From Jiangella anatolica (lineage in GTDB: Bacteria > Actinomycetota > Actinomycetes > Jiangellales > Jiangellaceae), in NCBI RefSeq assembly GCF_003236295.1, contig NZ_POTW01000023.1:1-64000 (forward strand): a stretch of DNA of 64,000 nt, given 5' to 3'. This document shows positions 1,727-61,404 of the stretch, piece after piece; within the stretch, counting starts at the first letter, position 1, and each line of letters opens with the position of its first letter. Made by a program: the position numbers and the translations under genes. The notes under the pieces were generated by a model, which saw only the letters and a program-made list of their open reading frames with translations, was not told the origin of the DNA and searched no databases.

Positions 1727-2851
1727 ATGAAGGTCGTCGTCGCTGCCGAGACCCGTGACCATGAACGCCGGGTGGCGCTCGTCCCTGACCTCGTCGGGCG
1801 GCTGACCAGCGCCGGCCTGGAGGTCGCCGTCGAGTCCGGCGCCGGGCTGGGCGCCCTGCACACCGACGCCGCCTACGAGGCCGCGGGCGCGTCCGTCGCC
1901 GGCGGCGACGCGCTGGGCAGCGCCGACGTCGTCGTGTCGGTGCAGCCGCTGCCGCCTGATCGCCTCGCCGGGCTGCGCTCCGGCGCCGTCACCGTCTCCT
2001 TCCTGCCCGCGACGCAGGAGCTCGACGTCGTGCGGGCCGCCCGCGACGCCGGTGTGACGGCGTTCTCGCTCGAGCTGGTGCCGCGCATCTCGCGGGCGCA
2101 GTCGATGGACGCGCTGACGTCGCAGGCGCTGGTCGCCGGCTACCGCGCGGTGCTCGTCGCCGCGGAGAAGCTGCCGCGGTTCTTCCCGCTCTCGATGACC
2201 GCCGCCGGGACGATCCCGCCGGCCGAGGTGCTCGTGCTCGGCGCCGGTGTGGCCGGGCTGCAGGCGATCGCGACGGCGCGCCGGCTCGGCGCCCGCGTCC
2301 AGGCCTACGACGTCCGCGCGGCGTCGGCCGACGAGGTGCGCAGCCTCGGCGCGCAGTTCGTCGAGCTGGACCTGCCCAGTCTCGAGGGTGCCGGCGGCTA
2401 CGCCCGCGAGATGACCGAGGAGCGCGCCCAGCTGCAGCGCGACCTGCTCGCGCCGCACGTGTCCGGGTCCGACGTGCTGATCACGACCGCTGCCGTACCG
2501 GGCCGTTCGGCGCCGCTGCTGGTGGAGCGGGCCGCCGTCGAGGCGATGAAGCCGGGCAGCATCGTGGTCGACCTCGCGGCGGAGTCCGGCGGCAACGTCG
2601 AGGGGAGCGTCGCGGGTGCTGAGGTGCCGGTCGGTGGCGCGCTGCTGTGGGGCGCGCAGAACGTGCCGAGCCAGCTGCCGGTGCACGCGAGCCGGCTGTT
2701 CGCCGCGAACGTCGTCAACCTCGTGCTGCTGATGACGGCCGACGGCAAGGTCACGCCCGACTTCGCCGACGAGATCGTCGACGGCGCCGCCGTCACGCAT
2801 GACGGCGTCGTGCGGCATGCACCGACCCGCGAGCTCCTGGAGGCCGAGTGA
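1727..2851 (+). CDS. pntAA: NAD(P) transhydrogenase, NAD-binding subunit alpha-1
   Basis: A 374-residue domain I of proton-translocating transhydrogenase, the cytoplasmic NAD(H)-binding part that exchanges hydride with NADP on PntB. It opens with the alanine-dehydrogenase/PNT N-domain (KVVVAAETRDHERRVALVPD). A Rossmann fold follows with VLGAGVAGLQAIATARRLGA at about residues 166-185 and the conserved VVDLAAESGGN near 285. It ends after domain I, so this is the split, three-gene form of the enzyme. The ATG has no clear ribosome site; a TAACGT box lies at 1712-1717, so a very short leader is possible. The stop overlaps the next start by 4 bases. Confidence 0.93.
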   Translation: MKVVVAAETRDHERRVALVPDLVGRLTSAGLEVAVESGAGLGALHTDAAYEAAGASVAGGDALGSADVVVSVQPLPPDRLAGLRSGAVTVSFLPATQELDVVRAARDAGVTAFSLELVPRISRAQSMDALTSQALVAGYRAVLVAAEKLPRFFPLSMTAAGTIPPAEVLVLGAGVAGLQAIATARRLGARVQAYDVRAASADEVRSLGAQFVELDLPSLEGAGGYAREMTEERAQLQRDLLAPHVSGSDVLITTAAVPGRSAPLLVERAAVEAMKPGSIVVDLAAESGGNVEGSVAGAEVPVGGALLWGAQNVPSQLPVHASRLFAANVVNLVLLMTADGKVTPDFADEIVDGAAVTHDGVVRHAPTRELLEAE

Positions 2852-3192
2852 CCGAGGGCGTCGCGCTGCTGACGGTGTTCGTGCTGGCGGTGTTCGTGGG
2901 GTTCGAGGTCGTGTCGAAGGTCTCGTCCACGCTGCACACGCCGCTGATGTCAGGCGCCAACGCGATCCACGGCGTCATCCTCGTCGGCTCGGTGATCGTG
3001 GCCGGGACGGCGGACGAGGCCGGCGTGCTGGTGGTCGCGCTGATCGCGGTCGTGCTGGCGACGCTGAACCTGGTCGGCGGGTTCGTCGTGACCGACCGGA
3101 TGTTGGAGATGTTCGGCGGGAAACGGCCGCCCGACGCGCCGGCTCAGTCGTCGGCGTCGGCTCAGTTGCCGGCGAAGGAGGGCGGCGAGTGA
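2848..3192 (+). CDS. pntAB: NAD(P) transhydrogenase, membrane subunit alpha-2
   Basis: A 114-residue membrane protein with three to four hydrophobic helices, equal to the membrane part that ends PntA in enterobacteria. The stretch HTPLMSGANAIHGVILVGS is the typical transhydrogenase signature at the membrane face. The tail after residue 95 is a Pro/Ala/Ser-rich linker. It starts with GTG inside the pntAA stop (GTGA, 4-base overlap) and ends inside the pntB start, so translation of the three genes is coupled. With PntB it forms the proton channel. Confidence 0.93.
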   Translation: MTEGVALLTVFVLAVFVGFEVVSKVSSTLHTPLMSGANAIHGVILVGSVIVAGTADEAGVLVVALIAVVLATLNLVGGFVVTDRMLEMFGGKRPPDAPAQSSASAQLPAKEGGE

Positions 3193-4679
3193 TCCCGGTC
3201 TGGGCCCAGGTCTGCTACGTCGTCGCCGCCGTCTGCTTCATCCTCGCTCTCAAGGGGCTCTCGTCGCCGAAGAGCGCGCGCCGCGGCAACCTGATCGGCG
3301 CGTTCGGCGCGCTGCTCGCCGTCGTCGTCACGTTCATCGCCTACGACATCGACAACCTCGGCTGGATCCTGGCCGCGGTCGCCGTCGGCGCGATCGGCGG
3401 CGCCTGGGGCGCCCGCCGGGTCGCGATGACCGCCATGCCGCAGCTCGTCGCGCTCTTCAACGGGGTCGGCGGCGGCGCGGCGGCACTGGTGGCCCTGCTG
3501 GAGCTGTCCGAGCCGGCCCGCGCCGGGCTGGTCAAGCCCGACGGCTTCTTCAACAACGACGCCGGCTGGTTCGCGTACTCGCCGCTGAACGACGAGTCGG
3601 GCGGGCACAGCCTCGAGGAGCTGGAGCGGCTCGCGCAGCTGCTCACGACCGGCACGCTCACGGCGACGGCGTTCACGATCCTGATCGGCGCGGTGTCGTT
3701 CTCCGGCTCGGTCATCACGTTCCTCAAGCTGCAGGAGCTGATGACCGGGCGCCCGATCACGTTCCCGGGCGGGCCGTTCGTGTTCGGCGGCGTGCTCGTG
3801 GCGGCGCTCGGCCTCGGCGTCTGGACGGTCGCCACCGGCAGCGTGACGCTGGCGATCATCCTGGCGATCGTCGGGTTGCTGGCCGGCGTGCTGCTGGTGC
3901 TCCCCGTCGGCGGCGCGGACGTGCCGATCGTCATCTCGCTGCTCAACGCGTTCACCGGCCTCGCGGTCGCCGCCGGCGGCTACGTGCTGGAGAACGCGCT
4001 GCTGCTGGTCGCCGGCACACTGGTCGGCGCGAGCGGCACGATCCTCACCCGGGCGATGGCCCGCGCCATGGGCCGCTCGGTCTCGTCGATCCTGTTCGGC
4101 GCGTTCAAGGGCGGCTCGACGGCCGGTGGCGGCGAGGCGTCGGACCGCCCGGTCCGCTCGGCCGGCCCCGACGACGTGGCGATCATGCTGGCGTATGCGC
4201 GCCGCGTCATCGTCGTCCCCGGGTACGGGCTGGCGGTCGCGCAGGCGCAGCACACGATCCGCGAGCTGGTCGACCTGCTGGAGAAGCGCGGCGTCGAGGT
4301 CGGCTACGCGATCCACCCGGTGGCCGGCCGGATGCCCGGGCACATGAACGTGCTGCTCGCGGAGGCCAACGTGCCCTACGAACAGCTGCTGGAGATGGAC
4401 ACCGCCAACGGCCAGCTCCGCACCGCCGACGTCGCCCTCGTCGTCGGCGCGAACGACGTGGTCAACCCGGCCGCGCGGACGTCGCCCGGTTCGCCGATCT
4501 ACGGCATGCCGATCCTCGACGCCGACCACGCCGGCGCGATCGTGTTCCTCAAGCGGTCGATGCGGCCCGGGTTCGCCGGCATCGAGAACGAGCTGCTGTT
4601 CGACCCGAAGACGACGCTGCTGTTCGGCGATGCGAAGGCGTCGCTGACGGCGCTCGTGACGGCGCTGAAGTCACTCTGA
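3189..4679 (+). CDS. pntB: NAD(P) transhydrogenase subunit beta
   Basis: A 496-residue subunit with about nine membrane helices (residues 1-290) followed by the NADP-binding domain III. Domain III shows VIVVPGYGLAVAQAQ, HPVAGRMPGHMNVLLAEA and the ALVVGANDVVNPAA loop. The complex uses the proton gradient to reduce NADP with NADH. The GTG at 3189 is chosen because it overlaps the pntAB stop by 4 bases and starts at the conserved membrane domain; the open frame extends further upstream but runs over pntAA/pntAB coding sequence there. The gene ends the operon. Confidence 0.94.
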   Translation: MIPVWAQVCYVVAAVCFILALKGLSSPKSARRGNLIGAFGALLAVVVTFIAYDIDNLGWILAAVAVGAIGGAWGARRVAMTAMPQLVALFNGVGGGAAALVALLELSEPARAGLVKPDGFFNNDAGWFAYSPLNDESGGHSLEELERLAQLLTTGTLTATAFTILIGAVSFSGSVITFLKLQELMTGRPITFPGGPFVFGGVLVAALGLGVWTVATGSVTLAIILAIVGLLAGVLLVLPVGGADVPIVISLLNAFTGLAVAAGGYVLENALLLVAGTLVGASGTILTRAMARAMGRSVSSILFGAFKGGSTAGGGEASDRPVRSAGPDDVAIMLAYARRVIVVPGYGLAVAQAQHTIRELVDLLEKRGVEVGYAIHPVAGRMPGHMNVLLAEANVPYEQLLEMDTANGQLRTADVALVVGANDVVNPAARTSPGSPIYGMPILDADHAGAIVFLKRSMRPGFAGIENELLFDPKTTLLFGDAKASLTALVTALKSL

Positions 4680-52871: not shown

Positions 52872-54170
52872 CTAGCTCGTGACGCTCTGCTCGACGGACT
52901 CCGCGGCCTCTTCCAGGCTCTCCGCCGGTGGCTGGCCGTCGAAGATGGACCGCTCGATCGCCGCCTTGATGGCGTCCTGGACCTCGCTCCAGTGCGGGCC
53001 GACCTCGTCGAACCTGCCCTGCTGGTAGGCCTGCGACCACACCTCGAGGAACGGGATCTCCGCCGCGGCGGGCGACTCCTCCCAGCCCTGCAGCGGCTGG
53101 ACGAAGCTGACGTCCTCGAGCCAGCGCTCGCTCTGCGACGTCATGTACTCGATGAACCTCCATGCCTCCTCCTGCTGCTCGGAGGCCTTGTTCACGGCGA
53201 AGTAGTAGCCGTACCAGCGCCCGGACGGGTTGGCCGGGTCGACCTGCGGGAGCGGGACGACGGCCAGGTTCTCGAACGTCTCGGGGTTGTCGATGGCGAT
53301 CTGCTCGACCGCCCACGGATAGATCATCGTCATCGACCGGCGGCCGGAGGCGAAGTCCTCGAACGGCGACGTCGCCTCGCGGGAGGCGGTGTCGGCGTTG
53401 CCGACCTGGTCCTCGCGGATGAGGTCGTACCAGATCTGCAGCGCCTCGACCGACTCCGGCTCGGTGAGCGCCGACCCGTCGCCGTCCTCGTTGAGGATCG
53501 AGCCGCCGGTCTCGTTCAGCAACGTCTGCAGTTGCTGGGTGTACCAGCCGGAGTGCAGGTAGACGAAGTTGAAGCCCTCGTGCCCGGCGGCGACCAGCTG
53601 CTGGCCGTACTCGGCGACGTCGTCCCAGGTCTGCGGCGGGTTGGCCGGGTCGAGGCCGGCGTCGGCGAAGTGCTGGGTGTTGATGGCGAACGCCGTCGCG
53701 TTGAACTCGCTCGGCACGCCGTAGAGGGTGCCGTCCTCGCCCTTCGCGCCGTCCAGCGTGCCGTCGACGTAGAGCGCCTCCAGCTCCTCGACGGAGTCGG
53801 CGCCGAACGCCGCCGGGTCGATCGGCGCGAGCAGCTCCTTGGGGATGTACTCGCCGCGCAGCGCGCTGTCGTCCATGTTGATGATGTCCGGGCCGGAGCC
53901 GTTGCTCAGCGACGTCAGCATCTTCGTGCCGAAGTCGTTGTTCGGGATCATCTCGTAGGTGATGTCGACGTTCGGGTTGGCCTCTTCGTACTCCGCGATC
54001 AGCTGCTCGTTCAGCTCGTTCATCGGCGGGTGCGTGTGGGTCCAGTAGGTCAGCTCGATCTGCCCGCCGTCGCCGGTCGAGCCGCCGTCGTCGGAGCCGC
54101 ACGCGGCGGTCACCGCCAGCACGGCCACGGCCGGGATCAGGACCGCGCGGGCGCGCGCTCGTGTGCTCAT
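52872..54170 (-). CDS. Sugar ABC transporter substrate-binding lipoprotein (family 1)
   Basis: A 432-residue extracellular binding protein. Lipobox VTAAC gives Cys24. TYWTHTHPPMNELNEQLIAE, PDIINMDDSALRGEYI and SGRRSMTMIYPWAVEQIA are family 1 features. It should bind an amino sugar or oligosaccharide, judged from nanE downstream. It follows the regulator gene by 45 bases and precedes the permeases by 4. Confidence 0.93.
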   Translation of the reverse strand: MSTRARARAVLIPAVAVLAVTAACGSDDGGSTGDGGQIELTYWTHTHPPMNELNEQLIAEYEEANPNVDITYEMIPNNDFGTKMLTSLSNGSGPDIINMDDSALRGEYIPKELLAPIDPAAFGADSVEELEALYVDGTLDGAKGEDGTLYGVPSEFNATAFAINTQHFADAGLDPANPPQTWDDVAEYGQQLVAAGHEGFNFVYLHSGWYTQQLQTLLNETGGSILNEDGDGSALTEPESVEALQIWYDLIREDQVGNADTASREATSPFEDFASGRRSMTMIYPWAVEQIAIDNPETFENLAVVPLPQVDPANPSGRWYGYYFAVNKASEQQEEAWRFIEYMTSQSERWLEDVSFVQPLQGWEESPAAAEIPFLEVWSQAYQQGRFDEVGPHWSEVQDAIKAAIERSIFDGQPPAESLEEAAESVEQSVTS

Positions 54171-54215
54171 GGGTTGCTCGCTTTCGTCGGTCCGCCCGGA
54201 GGGCGGCGCGGAAGG

Positions 54216-54977
54216 TCAGGCGGAACGCCGGGTGCGTCCGCGCAGGGCGGGCGCGGGCACCGGCCGGAGCTCGGCCGTCAACTGGAACCGGTCACCGCGG
54301 AAGACGTCGGTGCCGCACTCGACGACGCGTCCGTTCGTGCCGAACGTGACGACGTCGAGCTGGAACGCCGGGCGGCCCGGGTCGGTGTGCAGCAGTGCGG
54401 CGTCGTGCTCGTCCAGCAGCGTCGGCTCGATGGTCGTGCGGCCGGTGAGGATCGGGATGCTGTAGCGGCCGGCCAGCAGGTCGTACCAGGAGCCGTTCAG
54501 GTCCGCCGGCGCCAGGCCGGGCACGAGGTCGTCGGCGACCCAGGTGGTCTCCAGGCCGATGGGGTCGCCGTCGGCGGTGCGGAGCCGGGTGAACCGGACG
54601 ATCGTCGTGTTGACGGGGATGCGCAGCGTCCGGGCCTGCCGTGGCCCGGCCGGCAGCCGCCGGAACTCCAGCGTCTCGCTGCCCGGCACCAGGCCGCGGC
54701 GGCGCATCTCCTCCGAGAACGAGGTCATCGCCAGGCGGCGGGTCAGCTTCGGTCGCGCGACGAAGTTGCCCCGGCCGTGCTCGCGTACGACGAACCCGGC
54801 CGTCGCCAGGTCGTCGAGGGCCCGCCGCAGGGTCATGCGGGCCACTCCCCAGTCGTGTGCCAGCCGGCGTTCCGACGGCAGCGCCACGCCTTCGTCCTCG
54901 TGGTCGATGAGCTCGAGCAGGCGGCCGCGCACCTGTGCGACCTTGCCGGCCGCCGATCCGAAGCTGTCGTTCGCCAT
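54216..54977 (-). CDS. GntR family regulator, HutC subfamily (UTRA domain)
   Basis: A 253-residue repressor. The winged helix is at about 8-75 (ALPSERRLAHDWGVARMTLR). The UTRA domain (about 90-240) binds a sugar phosphate or similar effector, as in NagR; RLAMTSFSEEMRRRGLVPGS is its typical start. It is the first gene of the amino-sugar operon and probably controls the promoter just upstream. GAGGAG precedes the ATG. Confidence 0.9.
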   Translation of the reverse strand: MANDSFGSAAGKVAQVRGRLLELIDHEDEGVALPSERRLAHDWGVARMTLRRALDDLATAGFVVREHGRGNFVARPKLTRRLAMTSFSEEMRRRGLVPGSETLEFRRLPAGPRQARTLRIPVNTTIVRFTRLRTADGDPIGLETTWVADDLVPGLAPADLNGSWYDLLAGRYSIPILTGRTTIEPTLLDEHDAALLHTDPGRPAFQLDVVTFGTNGRVVECGTDVFRGDRFQLTAELRPVPAPALRGRTRRSA

Positions 54978-55002
54978 GCCACGAGCTCCTCGACATGAGG
55001 TG

Positions 55003-55024
55003 AGGTGCAGTGCGCACCTTTATA
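55003..55024 (-). promoter_or_regulatory. Promoter and operator of the amino-sugar operon
   Basis: On the minus strand a TATAAA box (55024-55019) is followed at once by AGGTGC-AGTGC... in inverted form: AGGTGC (55003-55008) and GCACCT (55014-55019). The repeat would cover the transcription start, the usual place for a GntR-type repressor site. Confidence 0.5.
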
Positions 55025-55064
55025 GACCGTGCCGCCGAAGCCGCACCAGAGCGGCCGCGAACCT

Positions 55065-55149
55065 CGATTAGACCAGTCGCGCGCGCGTTTGTCGCGCGAT
55101 GCCGCAGGCCACCGGCTTCTTCGTGCGAGTGGGCCGCAACTGGTCCAAT
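55065..55149. repeat. 17-bp imperfect inverted repeat between the GntR and NIPSNAP genes
   Basis: CGATTAGACCAGTCGCG (55065-55081) and the inverse of CGCAACTGGTCCAATCG (55133-55149) agree at 15 of 17 positions. It may be a terminator stem for the NIPSNAP gene or a pair of regulator sites. Confidence 0.5.
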
Positions 55150-55161
55150 CGGCGCGCTCTC

Positions 55162-55875
55162 TCAGCGCAGCAGCGATCGGCCGGTCGGCGCCAGGCGGAG
55201 GGTGACGGGCGGCGCCGTGAGCCGGCGGTCCAGTTCGGCGCGCAGGTCCGCCCGCTCCTCCCACCGGTCGCGGTGGGCCGCGTAGGCGTCGGCGTCGTCG
55301 AACCGGGCCACCCGGACGACGACATTCTCGCCCGTGCGCACCGGCAGCCCCAGGAAGGTGTTCGGCGACGGGTCGGTCTCGAGCCGGGCCAGCGGGACGA
55401 CGCCCAGCGCGGGCTCGATCTCGGCGGCGAGGAAGCGGCCGAACTCGCTCCGGTCGCCGTCGACCGGGTAGACCACCACGCTCACCACCGACGACGCCGG
55501 TGCGGTCGGCCGGTCGACGGCGGCGCCGACGGCCGGGAACGGGAAGCCGCCCTCGGCGTCGGCGGGCCGCAGCAGGTGCACGTCGTCGACGTCGATCATG
55601 GTGACGTTGGCGGCGGCGGCGTGCTCCTTCCAGACCGGGCCGGAGTAGAACGCCGTCAGCGCCTCGTGCCGCGTCTCCAGGTCGGCGAAGCCCCGGATCC
55701 AGACGAACCGGTCCGGTCGGTCGAGGTCGCGGAACTGGCCGATGAGCCGCATGCCGACGGCTTCCTGCGACTCGACGAGCTCGCGGTCGAACAGCGTGAC
55801 GAGGTCGTCGCGGCGGTCGGCGTGGACCGTGTACTGGCGCAGTTCGACGAGGGGACAGCACGGGTCGCTGGTCAT
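55162..55875 (-). CDS. NIPSNAP family protein, two domains
   Basis: A 237-residue cytoplasmic protein. The first NIPSNAP ferredoxin-like domain (about 10-105) begins LVELRQYTVHADRRDDLVTL and includes FVWIRGFADLETRHEALTAF. A second similar half follows from about 125 (SVVSVVVYPVDGDRSEFGRF). The molecular role is unknown; these domains bind or modify small molecules. The ATG at 55875 is chosen by the family start. It is a single gene. Confidence 0.85.
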   Translation of the reverse strand: MTSDPCCPLVELRQYTVHADRRDDLVTLFDRELVESQEAVGMRLIGQFRDLDRPDRFVWIRGFADLETRHEALTAFYSGPVWKEHAAAANVTMIDVDDVHLLRPADAEGGFPFPAVGAAVDRPTAPASSVVSVVVYPVDGDRSEFGRFLAAEIEPALGVVPLARLETDPSPNTFLGLPVRTGENVVVRVARFDDADAYAAHRDRWEERADLRAELDRRLTAPPVTLRLAPTGRSLLR

Positions 55876-55916
55876 GCCGCGAACGGTATCGGCCGGGGCC
55901 GACAGACAGCGGCGGC

Positions 55917-56567
55917 TCAGCGCCGGGCGTAGAGCCGGTAGAACAGCTCGACGGCCTGAGCGGCCCGGTCCTCGACGGTTGCGCCCGTCCACGCGGGGCC
56001 GGCGCCCAGCAGCGCCGTGATCTGGGCGTCGCGAACGGCCAGGCCGAACAGCACGCCGAACGCCTCGGCCGGGTCGGGGCAGTCGAGCTCGCCGGACTCC
56101 GTCGCCCGGGCCAGCACCGCCTCGAACAGGGGCCCGGTGGTGGCGCGGCCGCGCTGGTACAGCACCGCGGCGAGATCGGTGTCGGCGGGAACGCCGGCGA
56201 TGGCGGCCCGGTTCAGCGCCAGCGACCGCGGCCCGGTGAGCAGCGTGAGCAGCCCGGCGATCGCGGCCAGCAGGACGCCGCGCACGGGGGCATCGGCCGG
56301 GCCTTCGAGCGCCTGGCGCAGCAGCGCGTTGGTGCCGCCGGACTGCCGCTGGACCAGCGCCTCGAGCAGACCGCGGCGGCCGCCGAACCGGGCGTAGAGC
56401 GTCTCCTTCGAGGCCCGCGCCCGCTCGGCGATGCGGCGCGTGGTCAGCGCGGCCACCCCGTCCTCCTCGAGGATCGCGGCGGCGGCCGCGAGGATCGCCT
56501 CCTCGCGCGCCTCGCCTCGCGCCGCGGATCTCGGGGTCGATCCCGGGGTTCTTCCGGATGTCGCCAT
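55917..56567 (-). CDS. TetR/AcrR family repressor
   Basis: A 216-residue regulator. The HTH domain is at about 20-67 (AILAAAAAILEEDGVAALTT, ASKETLYARFGGRRGLLEAL). The C-terminal domain resembles TetR_C_7/AefR types. The ATG is the left end of a perfect palindrome shared with the divergent DUF1772 gene; TACGGT in the palindrome ends 7 bases before the start, so the mRNA is leaderless by prediction. Autorepression and repression of the DUF1772 gene are likely. Confidence 0.9.
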   Translation of the reverse strand: MATSGRTPGSTPRSAARGEAREEAILAAAAAILEEDGVAALTTRRIAERARASKETLYARFGGRRGLLEALVQRQSGGTNALLRQALEGPADAPVRGVLLAAIAGLLTLLTGPRSLALNRAAIAGVPADTDLAAVLYQRGRATTGPLFEAVLARATESGELDCPDPAEAFGVLFGLAVRDAQITALLGAGPAWTGATVEDRAAQAVELFYRLYARR

Positions 56568-56597
56568 GTCCGAACCGTACCGTACGGTTCGGACATG
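56565..56597. promoter_or_regulatory. Perfect 33-bp palindrome containing both divergent start codons
   Basis: CATGTCCGAACCGTAC (56565-56580) is mirrored exactly in 56582-56597 around a central C. The ATG ends of the arms are the start codons of tetR (minus) and DUF1772 (plus). Each strand has TACGGT followed by six bases and then ATG. A dimeric or tetrameric TetR protein bound here would block both promoters at once. Confidence 0.85.
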
Positions 56598-57164
56598 ACC
56601 ACCTCGAACCGCGGCCAACTCGCCGCCGCCGGGCTCGCCGTGCTGCTGCTCGGCCTCATCTCCGGCTTCTTCTACGCCTACGCCTGCTCGGTGATGGTCG
56701 GGCTGGCCGACACCGACGACCGCACGTTCATCGCCGCGATGCAGGCGATCAACGCCCACGTCCGCAACGCCGGCTTCGCGCCGAGCTTCTTCGGCGCGCT
56801 GATCGCCACGGCCGCGGCGGCCCTGCTCGGCGCCCGGCGCCGTCCGTCGCGGGCGACCGTGCTGCTGGCGGCCGCCGCGCTGGTCTACGCCGTCGGCGGG
56901 TTCGCGCTGACCATGGGTGTCAGCGTGCCGCTCAACGACGAGCTGGCGGCGGCCGGCGCGCCCGCGTCGATCGCCGATCCGGCCGCGGTCCGGGCCGACT
57001 ACGAGGGGCCGTGGACCACCTGGAACCTGGTGCGGACGGTCGCGTCGACCGTGGCGTTGGCGCTGGCCGTCGCCGCCGTCCACGACCTCGGCCGGAGCTA
57101 CCGCCGCAGCAGGTCGCGCAGTTCGGCGGCGATCGCGGCCGGGTCCGCCTCGGCCATGAAGTGA
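56595..57164 (+). CDS. DUF1772 (anthrone-oxygenase-like) membrane protein
   Basis: A 189-residue membrane protein with four helices. The family core is LLGLISGFFYAYACSVMVGL, MQAINAHVRNAGFAPSFFG and the late NDELAAAG and WTTWNLVRT. Some relatives act as anthrone oxygenases, but most are unassigned. Start is the right end of the 33-bp palindrome. The last 67 bases overlap the 3' end of the convergent hydrolase gene, so its C-terminal 20 residues (Arg/Ser-rich) may be a recent extension. Confidence 0.85.
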   Translation: MTTSNRGQLAAAGLAVLLLGLISGFFYAYACSVMVGLADTDDRTFIAAMQAINAHVRNAGFAPSFFGALIATAAAALLGARRRPSRATVLLAAAALVYAVGGFALTMGVSVPLNDELAAAGAPASIADPAAVRADYEGPWTTWNLVRTVASTVALALAVAAVHDLGRSYRRSRSRSSAAIAAGSASAMK

Positions 57165-57964
57165 CCCGCCGTCGTCGTGACGTGCCGCAGGTCCGGCGCC
57201 CACGCGCGCCACAGCCCGGCCGCGTCGAAGCCGAGCGCGGCGCCCCAGTCCTGCTGGACGACGGTGACCGGCATCGCGAGCGTCCGGCCGGCCGCCCGGT
57301 CCGCCGTGTCGTGCTCGACGTCGACGCCGGCGGACGCGCGATAGTCGGCGACGATCGACGGGACGGCAGCCGCGCAGGCACGCAGGTACTCCGCGCGCAC
57401 GTCGGCCGGGATCGCGTCCGGATCGGCGCCCCACTGGTCGAGGAAGTAGCCGAAGAACTCCTCCGCCGACCCGGCGATCATCCGTTCCGGCAGGCCGGGC
57501 GGCTGTGCCATCAGGTAGAGGTGGAACGCGACCGCCGCCGACGCCCCGTGCAGGACGTCCCACATGTCCAGCGTCGGCAGCACGTCGAGGATCGCGAGGT
57601 GGCTGACCCGGCCCGGGTGATCCAGGCCGGTCCGGAACGCGACCAGCGCGCCGCGGTCGTGCCCGGCCAGCGCGAAGCGGTCATGGCCCAGCTCGGTCGC
57701 GAGGGCGACGACGTCGGCGGCCATCGTGCGCTTCGAGTAGTCCGCCGCGGGCTTGTCGCTGCCGCCGTAGCCGCGCAGGTCCGGGACGATGACGGTGTGC
57801 TCGGCGGCCAGGTCCGCGGCGACGTGCCGCCACATCAGGTGGGTCTGCGGGAACCCGTGCAGCAGCACGACCGGGCGGCCGGCGCCGCCGACGGCGACGT
57901 TCAGCGCGACGCCGCCGTCGACCGCGACGCGCCGGTACTCGAAGCCGGGGATGGTGGGCGTCAT
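57098..57964 (-). CDS. Alpha/beta hydrolase with an Asp nucleophile (haloacetate dehalogenase/epoxide hydrolase-like)
   Basis: A 288-residue hydrolase. HGFPQTHLMWRHVA is the oxyanion region. PDLRGYGGSDKP and the nucleophile elbow AGHDRGALVAF follow, with Asp as nucleophile; the catalytic His is in TTAGHFMAEADP near the end. In fluoroacetate dehalogenases a second Arg follows in GHDRGxR; here it is Leu, so another substrate is likely. AGAGGAGAG precedes the ATG. It overlaps DUF1772 tail to tail by 67 bases. The frame is open far upstream, over the next gene, without homology. Confidence 0.88.
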   Translation of the reverse strand: MTPTIPGFEYRRVAVDGGVALNVAVGGAGRPVVLLHGFPQTHLMWRHVAADLAAEHTVIVPDLRGYGGSDKPAADYSKRTMAADVVALATELGHDRFALAGHDRGALVAFRTGLDHPGRVSHLAILDVLPTLDMWDVLHGASAAVAFHLYLMAQPPGLPERMIAGSAEEFFGYFLDQWGADPDAIPADVRAEYLRACAAAVPSIVADYRASAGVDVEHDTADRAAGRTLAMPVTVVQQDWGAALGFDAAGLWRAWAPDLRHVTTTAGHFMAEADPAAIAAELRDLLRR

Positions 57965-58024
57965 GACTCTCCTCTGGGTGAAGCTGGTGACGTGTCCAGC
58001 CTCCGGCCCGCCGATGAGCGTTCG

Positions 58025-59971
58025 ATGAGCACGTCCTTCGGCGTGCTCGGCCCGGTGGTCGCGTGGTCCCGTGGCGCCGACGTCGATCTCAAGGGGCCGC
58101 GGCATCGCGAGGTGCTGGCCCGGCTGATCGCGGCGCACGGCCGGGTGGTGCCGGTTCAGCGGATCGTCGCCGACCTGTGGGAGTCGCCGCCCGACGCCGC
58201 CGTCGTCGCGGTCCGCACGTTCGTCGCCGCGCTGCGACGGGCGCTGGAGCCGTCGCGCGCGCCACGGTCGCCGGCGACGTTGCTGGTCACCGAGGGGCCG
58301 GGCTACGCCCTGCGGCCGGCCCATGACGCCGTCGACGCGTGGCGGTTCGCGGCCGCGGTCTCCGCCGCCGGCGACGCGTCGCCGGGCGACGCCCTGCGGC
58401 TGCTGGACGACGCGCTGGCGCTGTGGCGCGGCCCGGCCTACGCCGACTTCGCCGGCGCCGCGTGGGCGCGGGCGGAGCGGACGCGGCTGACCGAGCTGCG
58501 GCTGACGGCGGTCGAACGGCGGGCGGACGCCCTGCTGGCGCTGGGCCGGGCCGCTGACGCCGTACCGGACCTGGACGCGCACGTCGCCGAGCACCCGTGG
58601 CGCGAGGAGGCGTGGCGGCTGCTGGCGCTCGCGCTGTACCGCGCGGGACGGCAGGCCGACGCGCTGGACGTGCTGCGCCGGGCCCGGTCGCTGCTCGGCG
58701 ACCAGCTGGGCGTCGATCCCGGGCCGCGGCTGCGGCAGCTGGAGACCGACCTGCTCCGGCAGGACCTGCCGGTGGACACCGTCGGGCGGGTGTGGGCGGA
58801 CGCCGCCGCGGCCTATGACCAGACGGTGGCAGCGGGCGCGCCCGGCCGGCTGGAGTCGACCGTCGGGCTGCTGCGGATCCTCGCGCTGACCGGCGGACGC
58901 GGGCTGGCGGCGGCGCAGGAGCAGCGGGTCGCCGCGATCGCGGCCGCGGAGCAGCTCGGCGACCCGGAGCTGACGGCGCGGGTCATCGGCGCGTACGACG
59001 TGCCCGGCGTGTGGACCCGGTCGGACCATCCGGACCGATCGGCGCTGGTCGTGGCGGCGGCGGAGCGGACGCTGGCCGCGCTGGCGCCGTCCGCGCCGCC
59101 GGCGACCCGGGCCCGGCTGCTGGCGACCGTCGCGATGGAGTCGCGCGGGTCGCACTCGTCCCGTCCGGCGCAGGCCGCCGCCGAGGCGGAGCGGATCGCC
59201 CGCGAGTTGCACGACCCCGCGCTGCTGGCGTTCGCGCTGAACGCGACGTTCCTGCAGACGTTCCAGCGGGCCGGGCTGGCGCCGTCGCGGGACGGGATCG
59301 GCGCCGAGCTGGTCGCACTGGGCGCCACCCATGGGCTGTCGGCGTTCGAGATCCTTGGCCGGCTGGTCCGGATGCAGGCCCGCGCCGCCCTCGCCGACTT
59401 CGCCGGCGCCGACGAGCACGCTGAGGCTGCCGACGACCTGGGCGCGCGGCACGACCGGCCGCTCGTCGCCGTCTTCACCCAGTGGTACCGGGCGGTACGG
59501 CTGGCCGCCGCCGGTGGAGAGGCCGAGGACGCCTACCGCGCGGCTGCGGAGCGGCTGGAGGGCGCCGGGATGCCCGGGCTGGAGCGCGGGCTGCTCCCGC
59601 TGGCGCTGCTGTGCCTGCGGGTCTGGCGGGAGCGGCCGCTGGACTTCGCCGACGACACCGACTGGGGCCCGTACGCGCCGTGGGCGCTGCCGCTCGTGCT
59701 GGCGTCCCGTGGCCGGCACGCGGAGGCCGCGGGATTGCTGCGGCGGATGCCCGAACCGCCGCGTGACCTGCTGTTCGAGGCGACGTGGTGCCTGATCGGC
59801 CGGGCCGCGCTGGCGACCGGCGAGTGGGCGCTGGCCGAGCGGGCCCGGTCGGTGCTGGCGCCCGCGGCCGGCGAGCTGGCGGGGGCGGGCAGCGCGGTGC
59901 TCACCGCCGGACCCGTGGCGTTCCACCTCGCCGCGCTGGACACTGGGCTGTCGACGAGGGGGTCGGGATGA
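58025..59971 (+). CDS. SARP-type regulator with BTAD domain and TPR-like C-terminus
   Basis: A 648-residue protein. An OmpR-type winged helix (about 4-92: VLGPVVAWSRGADVDLKGPR, VRTFVAALRRALEP) is followed by the bacterial transcriptional activator domain (about 98-240: AYADFAGAAWARAERTRLTE, ARSLLGDQLGVDPGPRLRQL). The remaining 400 residues are helical repeats without an NB-ARC ATPase. SARPs activate secondary-metabolite genes. It is coupled by ATGA to a PLP enzyme and is divergent from the hydrolase gene. Confidence 0.88.
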   Translation: MSTSFGVLGPVVAWSRGADVDLKGPRHREVLARLIAAHGRVVPVQRIVADLWESPPDAAVVAVRTFVAALRRALEPSRAPRSPATLLVTEGPGYALRPAHDAVDAWRFAAAVSAAGDASPGDALRLLDDALALWRGPAYADFAGAAWARAERTRLTELRLTAVERRADALLALGRAADAVPDLDAHVAEHPWREEAWRLLALALYRAGRQADALDVLRRARSLLGDQLGVDPGPRLRQLETDLLRQDLPVDTVGRVWADAAAAYDQTVAAGAPGRLESTVGLLRILALTGGRGLAAAQEQRVAAIAAAEQLGDPELTARVIGAYDVPGVWTRSDHPDRSALVVAAAERTLAALAPSAPPATRARLLATVAMESRGSHSSRPAQAAAEAERIARELHDPALLAFALNATFLQTFQRAGLAPSRDGIGAELVALGATHGLSAFEILGRLVRMQARAALADFAGADEHAEAADDLGARHDRPLVAVFTQWYRAVRLAAAGGEAEDAYRAAAERLEGAGMPGLERGLLPLALLCLRVWRERPLDFADDTDWGPYAPWALPLVLASRGRHAEAAGLLRRMPEPPRDLLFEATWCLIGRAALATGEWALAERARSVLAPAAGELAGAGSAVLTAGPVAFHLAALDTGLSTRGSG

Positions 59972-61344
59972 GCGCACGACGGGAAGACTTCGACGCCGCG
60001 CTGGATGTCGCGAGCGACCGGGCCAGGGCCTGGCTCGGCGGCCTGGACGGGCGGATCGTGCGCGCGACGGCGACGGTCGACGAGGTCCGGGCGGCGCTGG
60101 GTCCGGCGCTGCCGGACGGGCCCAGCGACCCGGCCGACGTCGTCCGGCTGCTGGCTGACGCCGCCGAGCCGGGGCTGGTGGCGACGCCGTCGGGCCGGTT
60201 CTTCGGGTTCGTCATCGGCGGCACGCTGCCGGCCGCGCTGGCGGCGGACTGGCTGGTCGGCGCGTGGGACCAGAACGCCGCGCTGCGGGCCGCGAGCCCG
60301 GCCGGCGCCGCCGTCGACGACATCGCGGCGGGCTGGCTGCTCGACGTGCTGGGCTTGCCGCCCGCCGCCGGAGCCGGGTTCGTCACCGGCGCGACGATGG
60401 CGAACTTCGCCGGCCTCGCTGCCGGCCGGGACGCCGTCCTGGCCCGGGCCGGCTGGGACGTCGGCGCGCGCGGGCTGAGCGGCGCCCCGTCCGTCCGGGT
60501 GCTGGCCGGCGCGGAACGGCACGACTCCATTGTGTCGGCGCTGCGCTACCTCGGGCTCGGCGCGCCGGAGGCCGTCGCCGTCGACGACCAGGGGCGGGTG
60601 CGGTTCGACGCGCTGGCCGCCGCGCTGGCCGCGGAGCCGGGCCGGCCGACGATCGTCTGCCTGCAGGCCGGCAACATCCACTCCGGCGCGTTCGACCCGT
60701 TCGCGTCGGCCGTGCCGGCGGCGCACGCCGTCGGCGCCTGGGTGCACGTCGACGGCGCGTTCGGGCTGTGGGCGGCCGCGTCGCCGCGGACCCGGGCCCT
60801 GGTGGCGGGCGCCGGCGACGCGGACTCCTGGGCGACCGACGCGCACAAGACGCTCAACGTCCCCTACGACAGCGGGGTGGTCGTGGTCCGCGACCCGGCG
60901 GCGCTGCGGTCGGCCATGAGCTACCACGCCGACTACCTGGTCACCGACGCGGCGCACCTGGAGCCGTACGAGCGGGTGCCGGAACTGTCGCGGCGGGCCC
61001 GGTCGGTGCCGGTGTGGGCGGCGCTGCGCTCGCTCGGCCGGTCCGGCCTCTCCGACCTCGTCGACCGGCTGTGCCGGCACGCGGCCGCGTTCGCCGCCGG
61101 CGCCCGGGCGATCCCCGGCGCCGAGGTCCTCAACGACGTCGTGTTCACCCAGGTCTGCCTCTCCTTCGGCGACGACGAGCGCACCCGCGAGGTCGGCCGG
61201 CGGCTGATGGCGGACGGGACGGTCTGGATGACCGGCTCGCGCTGGCGTGGCCGCGAGGTGCTGCGCATCTCGGTGAGCAACTGGTCCACCACCGACGCCG
61301 ACGTCGCCCGCGGCCTCGACGCCCTCGCCCGCGCGGCCGGCTGA
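59968..61344 (+). CDS. PLP-dependent group II amino acid decarboxylase-like enzyme
   Basis: A 458-residue fold-type I enzyme. The Schiff-base Lys294 is in DAHKTLNVPYDSG, Asp262 (HVDGAFGLWAA) pairs with the pyridine nitrogen, and His185 (GAERHDSIVSA) can stack on PLP. RFFGFVIGGTLPAA and GFVTGATMANFAGL are typical of aromatic/glutamate decarboxylase relatives. It should decarboxylate an amino acid or act as an aldehyde synthase; the substrate is open. Translation is coupled to the SARP gene (ATGA). Confidence 0.9.
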   Translation: MSARREDFDAALDVASDRARAWLGGLDGRIVRATATVDEVRAALGPALPDGPSDPADVVRLLADAAEPGLVATPSGRFFGFVIGGTLPAALAADWLVGAWDQNAALRAASPAGAAVDDIAAGWLLDVLGLPPAAGAGFVTGATMANFAGLAAGRDAVLARAGWDVGARGLSGAPSVRVLAGAERHDSIVSALRYLGLGAPEAVAVDDQGRVRFDALAAALAAEPGRPTIVCLQAGNIHSGAFDPFASAVPAAHAVGAWVHVDGAFGLWAAASPRTRALVAGAGDADSWATDAHKTLNVPYDSGVVVVRDPAALRSAMSYHADYLVTDAAHLEPYERVPELSRRARSVPVWAALRSLGRSGLSDLVDRLCRHAAAFAAGARAIPGAEVLNDVVFTQVCLSFGDDERTREVGRRLMADGTVWMTGSRWRGREVLRISVSNWSTTDADVARGLDALARAAG

Positions 61345-61404
61345 CTGACCGCGGCGCGGCGTGCATGGCCGGGGTGGGTGGTCAGCTGCTAAACTCGTCA
61401 GCAG

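Follow-up and report, generated by a model that had tools for sequence, protein, structure and literature searches.

TetR-family regulators (TFRs) usually act as repressors of a divergently transcribed neighbour when the gap is under 200 bp (PMC3511530). In Tn10, the divergent repressor and target genes tetR and tetA are controlled by one repressor through operators governing both promoters; the layout spans 81 bp, in which two 15-bp operators stand apart from each other (PMC3511530). TetR proteins occupy single-dimer sites of 15–17 bp or dimer-of-dimers sites of 22–32 bp (PMC4150764). In Mycobacterium tuberculosis, the common −10 box is TANNNT, with no conserved −35 element (PMC3898074).

Here we analysed the window, a 64,000-nucleotide stretch of Jiangella anatolica DNA, in which a tetR gene and a DUF1772 gene diverge from a start-codon gap of 27 bp (56568–56594), far inside the 200-bp distance typical of autoregulated TetR-family operators. 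The locus is like Tn10 tetR/tetA in pairing a repressor gene with a divergent target, but its 27 bp would hold operator registers that overlap rather than stand apart, and leaderless starts are predicted on both sides. Judging from sequence, we consider it likely that the palindrome filling this gap is a compacted TetR-type autoregulatory switch, with both mRNAs probably leaderless.

A palindrome bounded by two start codons

55920–56567, minus strand: tetR, 216 codons from the ATG at 56567, encoding a TetR_N + TetR_C_7 (AefR-like) regulator
56595–57164, plus strand: DUF1772/Anthrone_oxy (PF08592) gene for a small membrane-type protein of 189 amino acids
56565–56597: perfect, odd-centred 33-bp palindrome including both ATGs, found by sequence reading and repeat search

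An earlier note on this DNA had named the two genes tetR and DUF1772, and domain matches bore this out. The tetR product matches TetR_N and TetR_C_7 (PF00440, 3.9e-12; PF14246, 2.8e-16), as a TetR-family protein with an N-terminal helix-turn-helix does, and its partner matches PF08592 Anthrone_oxy. Further out, a NIPSNAP-domain protein gene lies downstream of tetR (55162–55875, minus strand), and an alpha/beta hydrolase gene (57098–57880, minus strand) is convergent with the DUF1772 gene, their 3′ ends overlapping. Both ATGs appear to be the true translation starts, as the best in-frame candidates and as codons kept in the ortholog described below. Within 60 codons 5′ of its ATG the DUF1772 gene has no in-frame start or stop, so that this ATG is the first possible start; the same search for tetR returned only a TTG, 17 codons upstream and within the DUF1772 gene. 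The position of the tetR N terminus is consistent with its relatives, whose TetR matches start at query residues 2–18.

The palindrome reads CATGTCCGAACCGTAC-C-GTACGGTTCGGACATG, two perfect 16-nt arms around the central base 56581, and ends in the tetR ATG (56567 to 56565, minus strand) and the DUF1772 ATG (56595–56597, plus strand). Sequence reading and repeat search thus confirmed the exact 33-bp mirror between two divergent start codons that had been claimed, and reading also the 27-bp gap and a TACGGT-N6-ATG on each strand. Perfect 16-bp arms alone are not unique in the genus: the window together with 1.6 Mb of the same-genus genome G008, 1.66 Mb in all, holds eight contiguous palindromes with arms of at least 16 nt, of which several are of a GC-rich hairpin type and one is the ortholog of 56565–56597. 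Because long perfect palindromes are not rare, the case is carried by conservation and position and not by symmetry alone. With up to three mismatches allowed, no further copy occurs in the 7.0-Mb genome to which the window belongs.

The earlier note had proposed comparing the site in related genomes. Across 12 genomes of the genus, the palindrome recurs in just one besides its own, namely G008, at a locus (L003) where the flanking tetR and DUF1772 genes are orthologous to those of the window. All 33 of its bases are kept; the tetR genes are 80% identical and the DUF1772 genes 87%. The palindrome sits in a longer identical run:

56553–56599: 47 bp identical to L003; the run reaches 12 bp into tetR, but towards the DUF1772 gene it ends 2 bp after the palindrome

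The 20-bp blocks near this run are 65–75% identical. Kept base for base in a second genome whose nearby flanks have diverged to this extent, the palindrome is real biology. The first codons of tetR at 56553–56564 are identical in the ortholog and the DUF1772 side diverges at once, hinting that an upstream part of the DUF1772 promoter may lie inside tetR. Around the locus the window and G008 are collinear, apart from an additional stretch of about 2.5 kb in G008 (L072, G008:C1:760001-780000, reverse complement 2125–4593), which falls between matches to window positions 53022–55152 and 55149–61355, with the junction at 55149–55152.

Candidate operator registers and a motif shared by distant relatives

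To place the site in context, we compared loci collected as relatives of the DUF1772 protein, with minus-strand loci reverse-complemented. A TetR relative lies divergently beside the DUF1772 gene in L003, L004 and L032–L051, which come from actinobacteria, three alphaproteobacteria and one Rubrobacteraceae MAG; most of the more distant DUF1772 paralogs (L005–L031) have no such TetR in the stretch examined. Nearly all divergent pairs, with the exception of L050, carry the intergenic motif CGWACY-N4-RGTWCG, a conserved palindromic site of the kind that marks divergent TetR-family operators, and this motif travels with the pair in actinobacteria, two of the three alphaproteobacteria and the Rubrobacteraceae MAG. 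The usual layout is two motif copies 23–29 bp apart with an AT-rich stretch between them, and a leader of tens of bases, often with a GGAG-type ribosome site. Set against these separate operators and leaders, the layout in the window suggests that compaction arose secondarily in this lineage. Register overlap itself is not unique to the genus, since the same overlapped GTACCGTAC-type core is present in Frankia L033 and in the alphaproteobacterial L049. A literature search on DUF1772 and TetR found no study of the regulation of this pair, and a search with operator sequence strings found no matching paper.

An operator matrix was built from 26 sites of relatives, with the window and L003 excluded. 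Scanning the 64-kb window with it, a held-out test that is not fully blind as the consensus had been spotted by eye before the matrix was constructed, returned the following two as its best and second-best sites, respectively:

56576–56591, plus strand: putative operator register 2, CGTACCGTACGGTTCG, a perfect CGWACC-N4-GGTWCG match scoring 18.0 bits
56571–56586, plus strand: putative operator register 1, CGAACCGTACCGTACG, with one mismatch, scoring 14.8 bits

Their centres lie 5 bp from each other, and the overlapping pair forms the palindrome core. That the two top sites of the window both fall inside the palindrome indicates how it is probably built: a pair of operator registers that overlap, merged with two leaderless promoters of the form TANNNT-N6-ATG standing back to back. 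The operator role assigned to the palindrome in the earlier note is supported by conservation of the motif in distant tetR–DUF1772 pairs, but the unit had been drawn too large: the predicted operator unit is likely the 16-bp CGWACC-N4-GGTWCG element in two registers rather than the whole 33-bp dyad, whose outer bases would mostly be promoter-to-ATG spacing and start codons. Given the known size classes of TetR sites, two registers would fit a dimer-of-dimers site. It is also possible that one dimer binds the better register, and the 5-bp offset could be mere sequence redundancy.

Predicted leaderless promoters and the rarity of their overlay

56583–56588, plus strand: putative −10 box TACGGT (TANNNT) of the DUF1772 gene, six bases before its ATG
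56574–56579, minus strand: putative −10 box TACGGT (TANNNT) of tetR, six bases before its ATG

These boxes predict leaderless starts at 56595 for the DUF1772 gene and at 56567 for tetR. Across 400 kb of a same-genus genome, TANNNT most often stands 6 or 7 bases ahead of an ATG, with 16 and 27 cases respectively, compared with about 1–6 cases at most other spacings; this is the distance that leaderless starts would predict. Neither gene has a Shine–Dalgarno-type sequence between −10 box and ATG, no −35 element is recognisable on either side of the palindrome, and our search near it found no classical −35 and −10 promoter and no promoter-like match by the tetR start. Both strands thus show the hallmark of actinobacterial leaderless genes, a TANNNT about 6–7 nt before the start with no Shine–Dalgarno sequence, and the earlier reading of the boxes as −10 elements of leaderless genes agrees with this genus-wide signal. 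The predicted tetR promoter has little conserved upstream sequence, identity to the ortholog stopping 2 bp past the palindrome.

Paired leaderless-looking promoters are a recurrent layout in the genus. A count over 1.6 Mb of G008 gave 17 divergent pairs that combine a gap of at most 80 bp with TANNNT 5–8 bases before both starts, against 0 at control distances, in open frames filtered by codon composition only and not by annotation. Candidates include L135:9840-9903, L077:18984-19036 and L130:18127-18197, and several of the pairs adjoin a gene with a regulator-like N terminus. The complete overlay is scarcer. A class-wide scan for exact CGWACC-N4-GGTWCG-N3-ATG, with no mismatches or GTG starts allowed, matched in 19 of 394 genomes; of the 16 hits whose surroundings were inspected, two, those in the window and in its ortholog, lie between tetR and DUF1772, and the rest look fortuitous or fall inside genes. 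What is unusual is therefore the complete coincidence of an operator with both promoters, its exact pattern occurring in 2 of 394 genomes of the class. The claim that such an arrangement is rarely described holds for this overlay. It does not hold for the parts: TetR operators are as a rule divergent, the genus has a fair number of divergent pairs that look leaderless, and a regulator and target pair with both mRNAs leaderless is reported for M. tuberculosis (PMC3898074). Most likely, the predicted site packs the well-known divergent operator-promoter of TetR systems into an extremely compact form.

Proposed switch, rival readings and known systems

In the model that we propose, TetR would bind the CGWACC-N4-GGTWCG elements in the 27-bp gap, as motif conservation suggests, and either one dimer or two on opposite DNA faces, as in QacR and CprB, could cover the overlapping registers. 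The two back-to-back TANNNT boxes share operator bases, each six bases before an ATG, so a bound repressor would close off the −10 boxes and the starts of both genes, and ligand-triggered release would open both promoters; the mRNAs are probably leaderless, in line with the genus-wide spacing signal. Just 3 bp separate the boxes and 28 bp the predicted starts, so opposing polymerases should exclude each other. RNA polymerase would then occupy one orientation at a time, leaving the repressor and DUF1772 genes co-induced yet competing. A stronger version, in which one fully symmetric 33-bp element supplies the two leaderless promoters with their start codons and also acts as a two-dimer operator, is tentative, and we put it at somewhat below an even chance. 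Were it true, the tetR and DUF1772 promoters would be identical in sequence from −12 to +3 with all control shared, and the direction in which polymerase lands would alone separate the genes, giving a stochastic, competitive feedback loop.

The main rival keeps the palindrome as the TetR operator and makes only the DUF1772 gene leaderless. The promoter of tetR would then lie within the DUF1772 gene and give the tetR mRNA a real leader, and the TANNNT on the tetR side would be a by-product of operator symmetry. Frankia sp. QA3 (L033), whose TACGGT-N6-ATG also speaks for the proposed switch, fits this rival, with a TTGACT −35-like box and TACGGT-N6-ATG before an in-frame DUF1772 start and candidate tetR starts 51–72 bp away. 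The lopsided identity run points the same way, with its 12 bp on the tetR side, where the upstream part of a DUF1772 promoter would lie, and 2 bp on the other. Against this, the TACGGT-N6-ATG spacing is exact on both strands, and tetR has neither a promoter-like match near its start nor an SD-like sequence before it; we regard this reading as unlikely, though worth keeping in mind.

Two others depart further from the proposed switch. That the palindrome serves a different regulator while the adjacent TetR acts elsewhere is improbable, as the motif accompanies the tetR–DUF1772 pair from actinobacteria to two of three alphaproteobacteria and the Rubrobacteraceae MAG, and the site is single in its own genome within three mismatches. 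More improbable still is a DNA or RNA hairpin, a terminator or attenuator, in place of a protein site. Although the inverted repeat is perfect, and several palindromes in the genus with arms of at least 16 nt resemble GC-rich hairpins, this one lies between divergent start codons and not after genes, and relatives keep the spaced operator motif and its duplication, not a continuous hairpin. We rejected the terminator reading, having found no terminator-like site.

If the compacted TetR switch is correct, it shows how tightly a TetR divergent switch can be packed, with 33 bp accommodating the operator and, for each of the two genes, a promoter and a start codon, which leaderless translation would allow by making leaders unnecessary. 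The locus also provides a testable candidate operator motif for a widespread, apparently undescribed TetR–DUF1772 module, and a natural symmetric test case for RNA polymerase competition at divergent promoters.

Two possible precedents were set aside: CrtR/crtE of Corynebacterium glutamicum, as crtE has a 114-nt leader, and LysG/lysE of M. tuberculosis, which has overlapping promoters and one leaderless start. The dimer-of-dimers operators of QacR and CprB (PMC4150764) are likewise long sites able to hold two dimers on opposite DNA faces, but in the window two dimers are suggested only by registers 5 bp apart, and start codons fall within the palindrome. M. tuberculosis Rv1129c/prpD (PMC3898074, Cortes et al. 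2013) also joins a divergent regulator and target with leaderless mRNAs on both sides, although the part of that article considered here does not describe an overlay of operator, −10 box and ATG in one perfect palindrome. The bidirectional promoters of Warman and co-workers (PMC12825309) are similar in their symmetric promoter DNA and in the mutual exclusion of opposing polymerases. In those promoters a single −10 element is read in both directions, and the distance between starts is mostly 18 bp, with 10 or 23 bp also seen, whereas in the window 3 bp separate two distinct TACGGT boxes and the predicted starts are 28 bp from each other.
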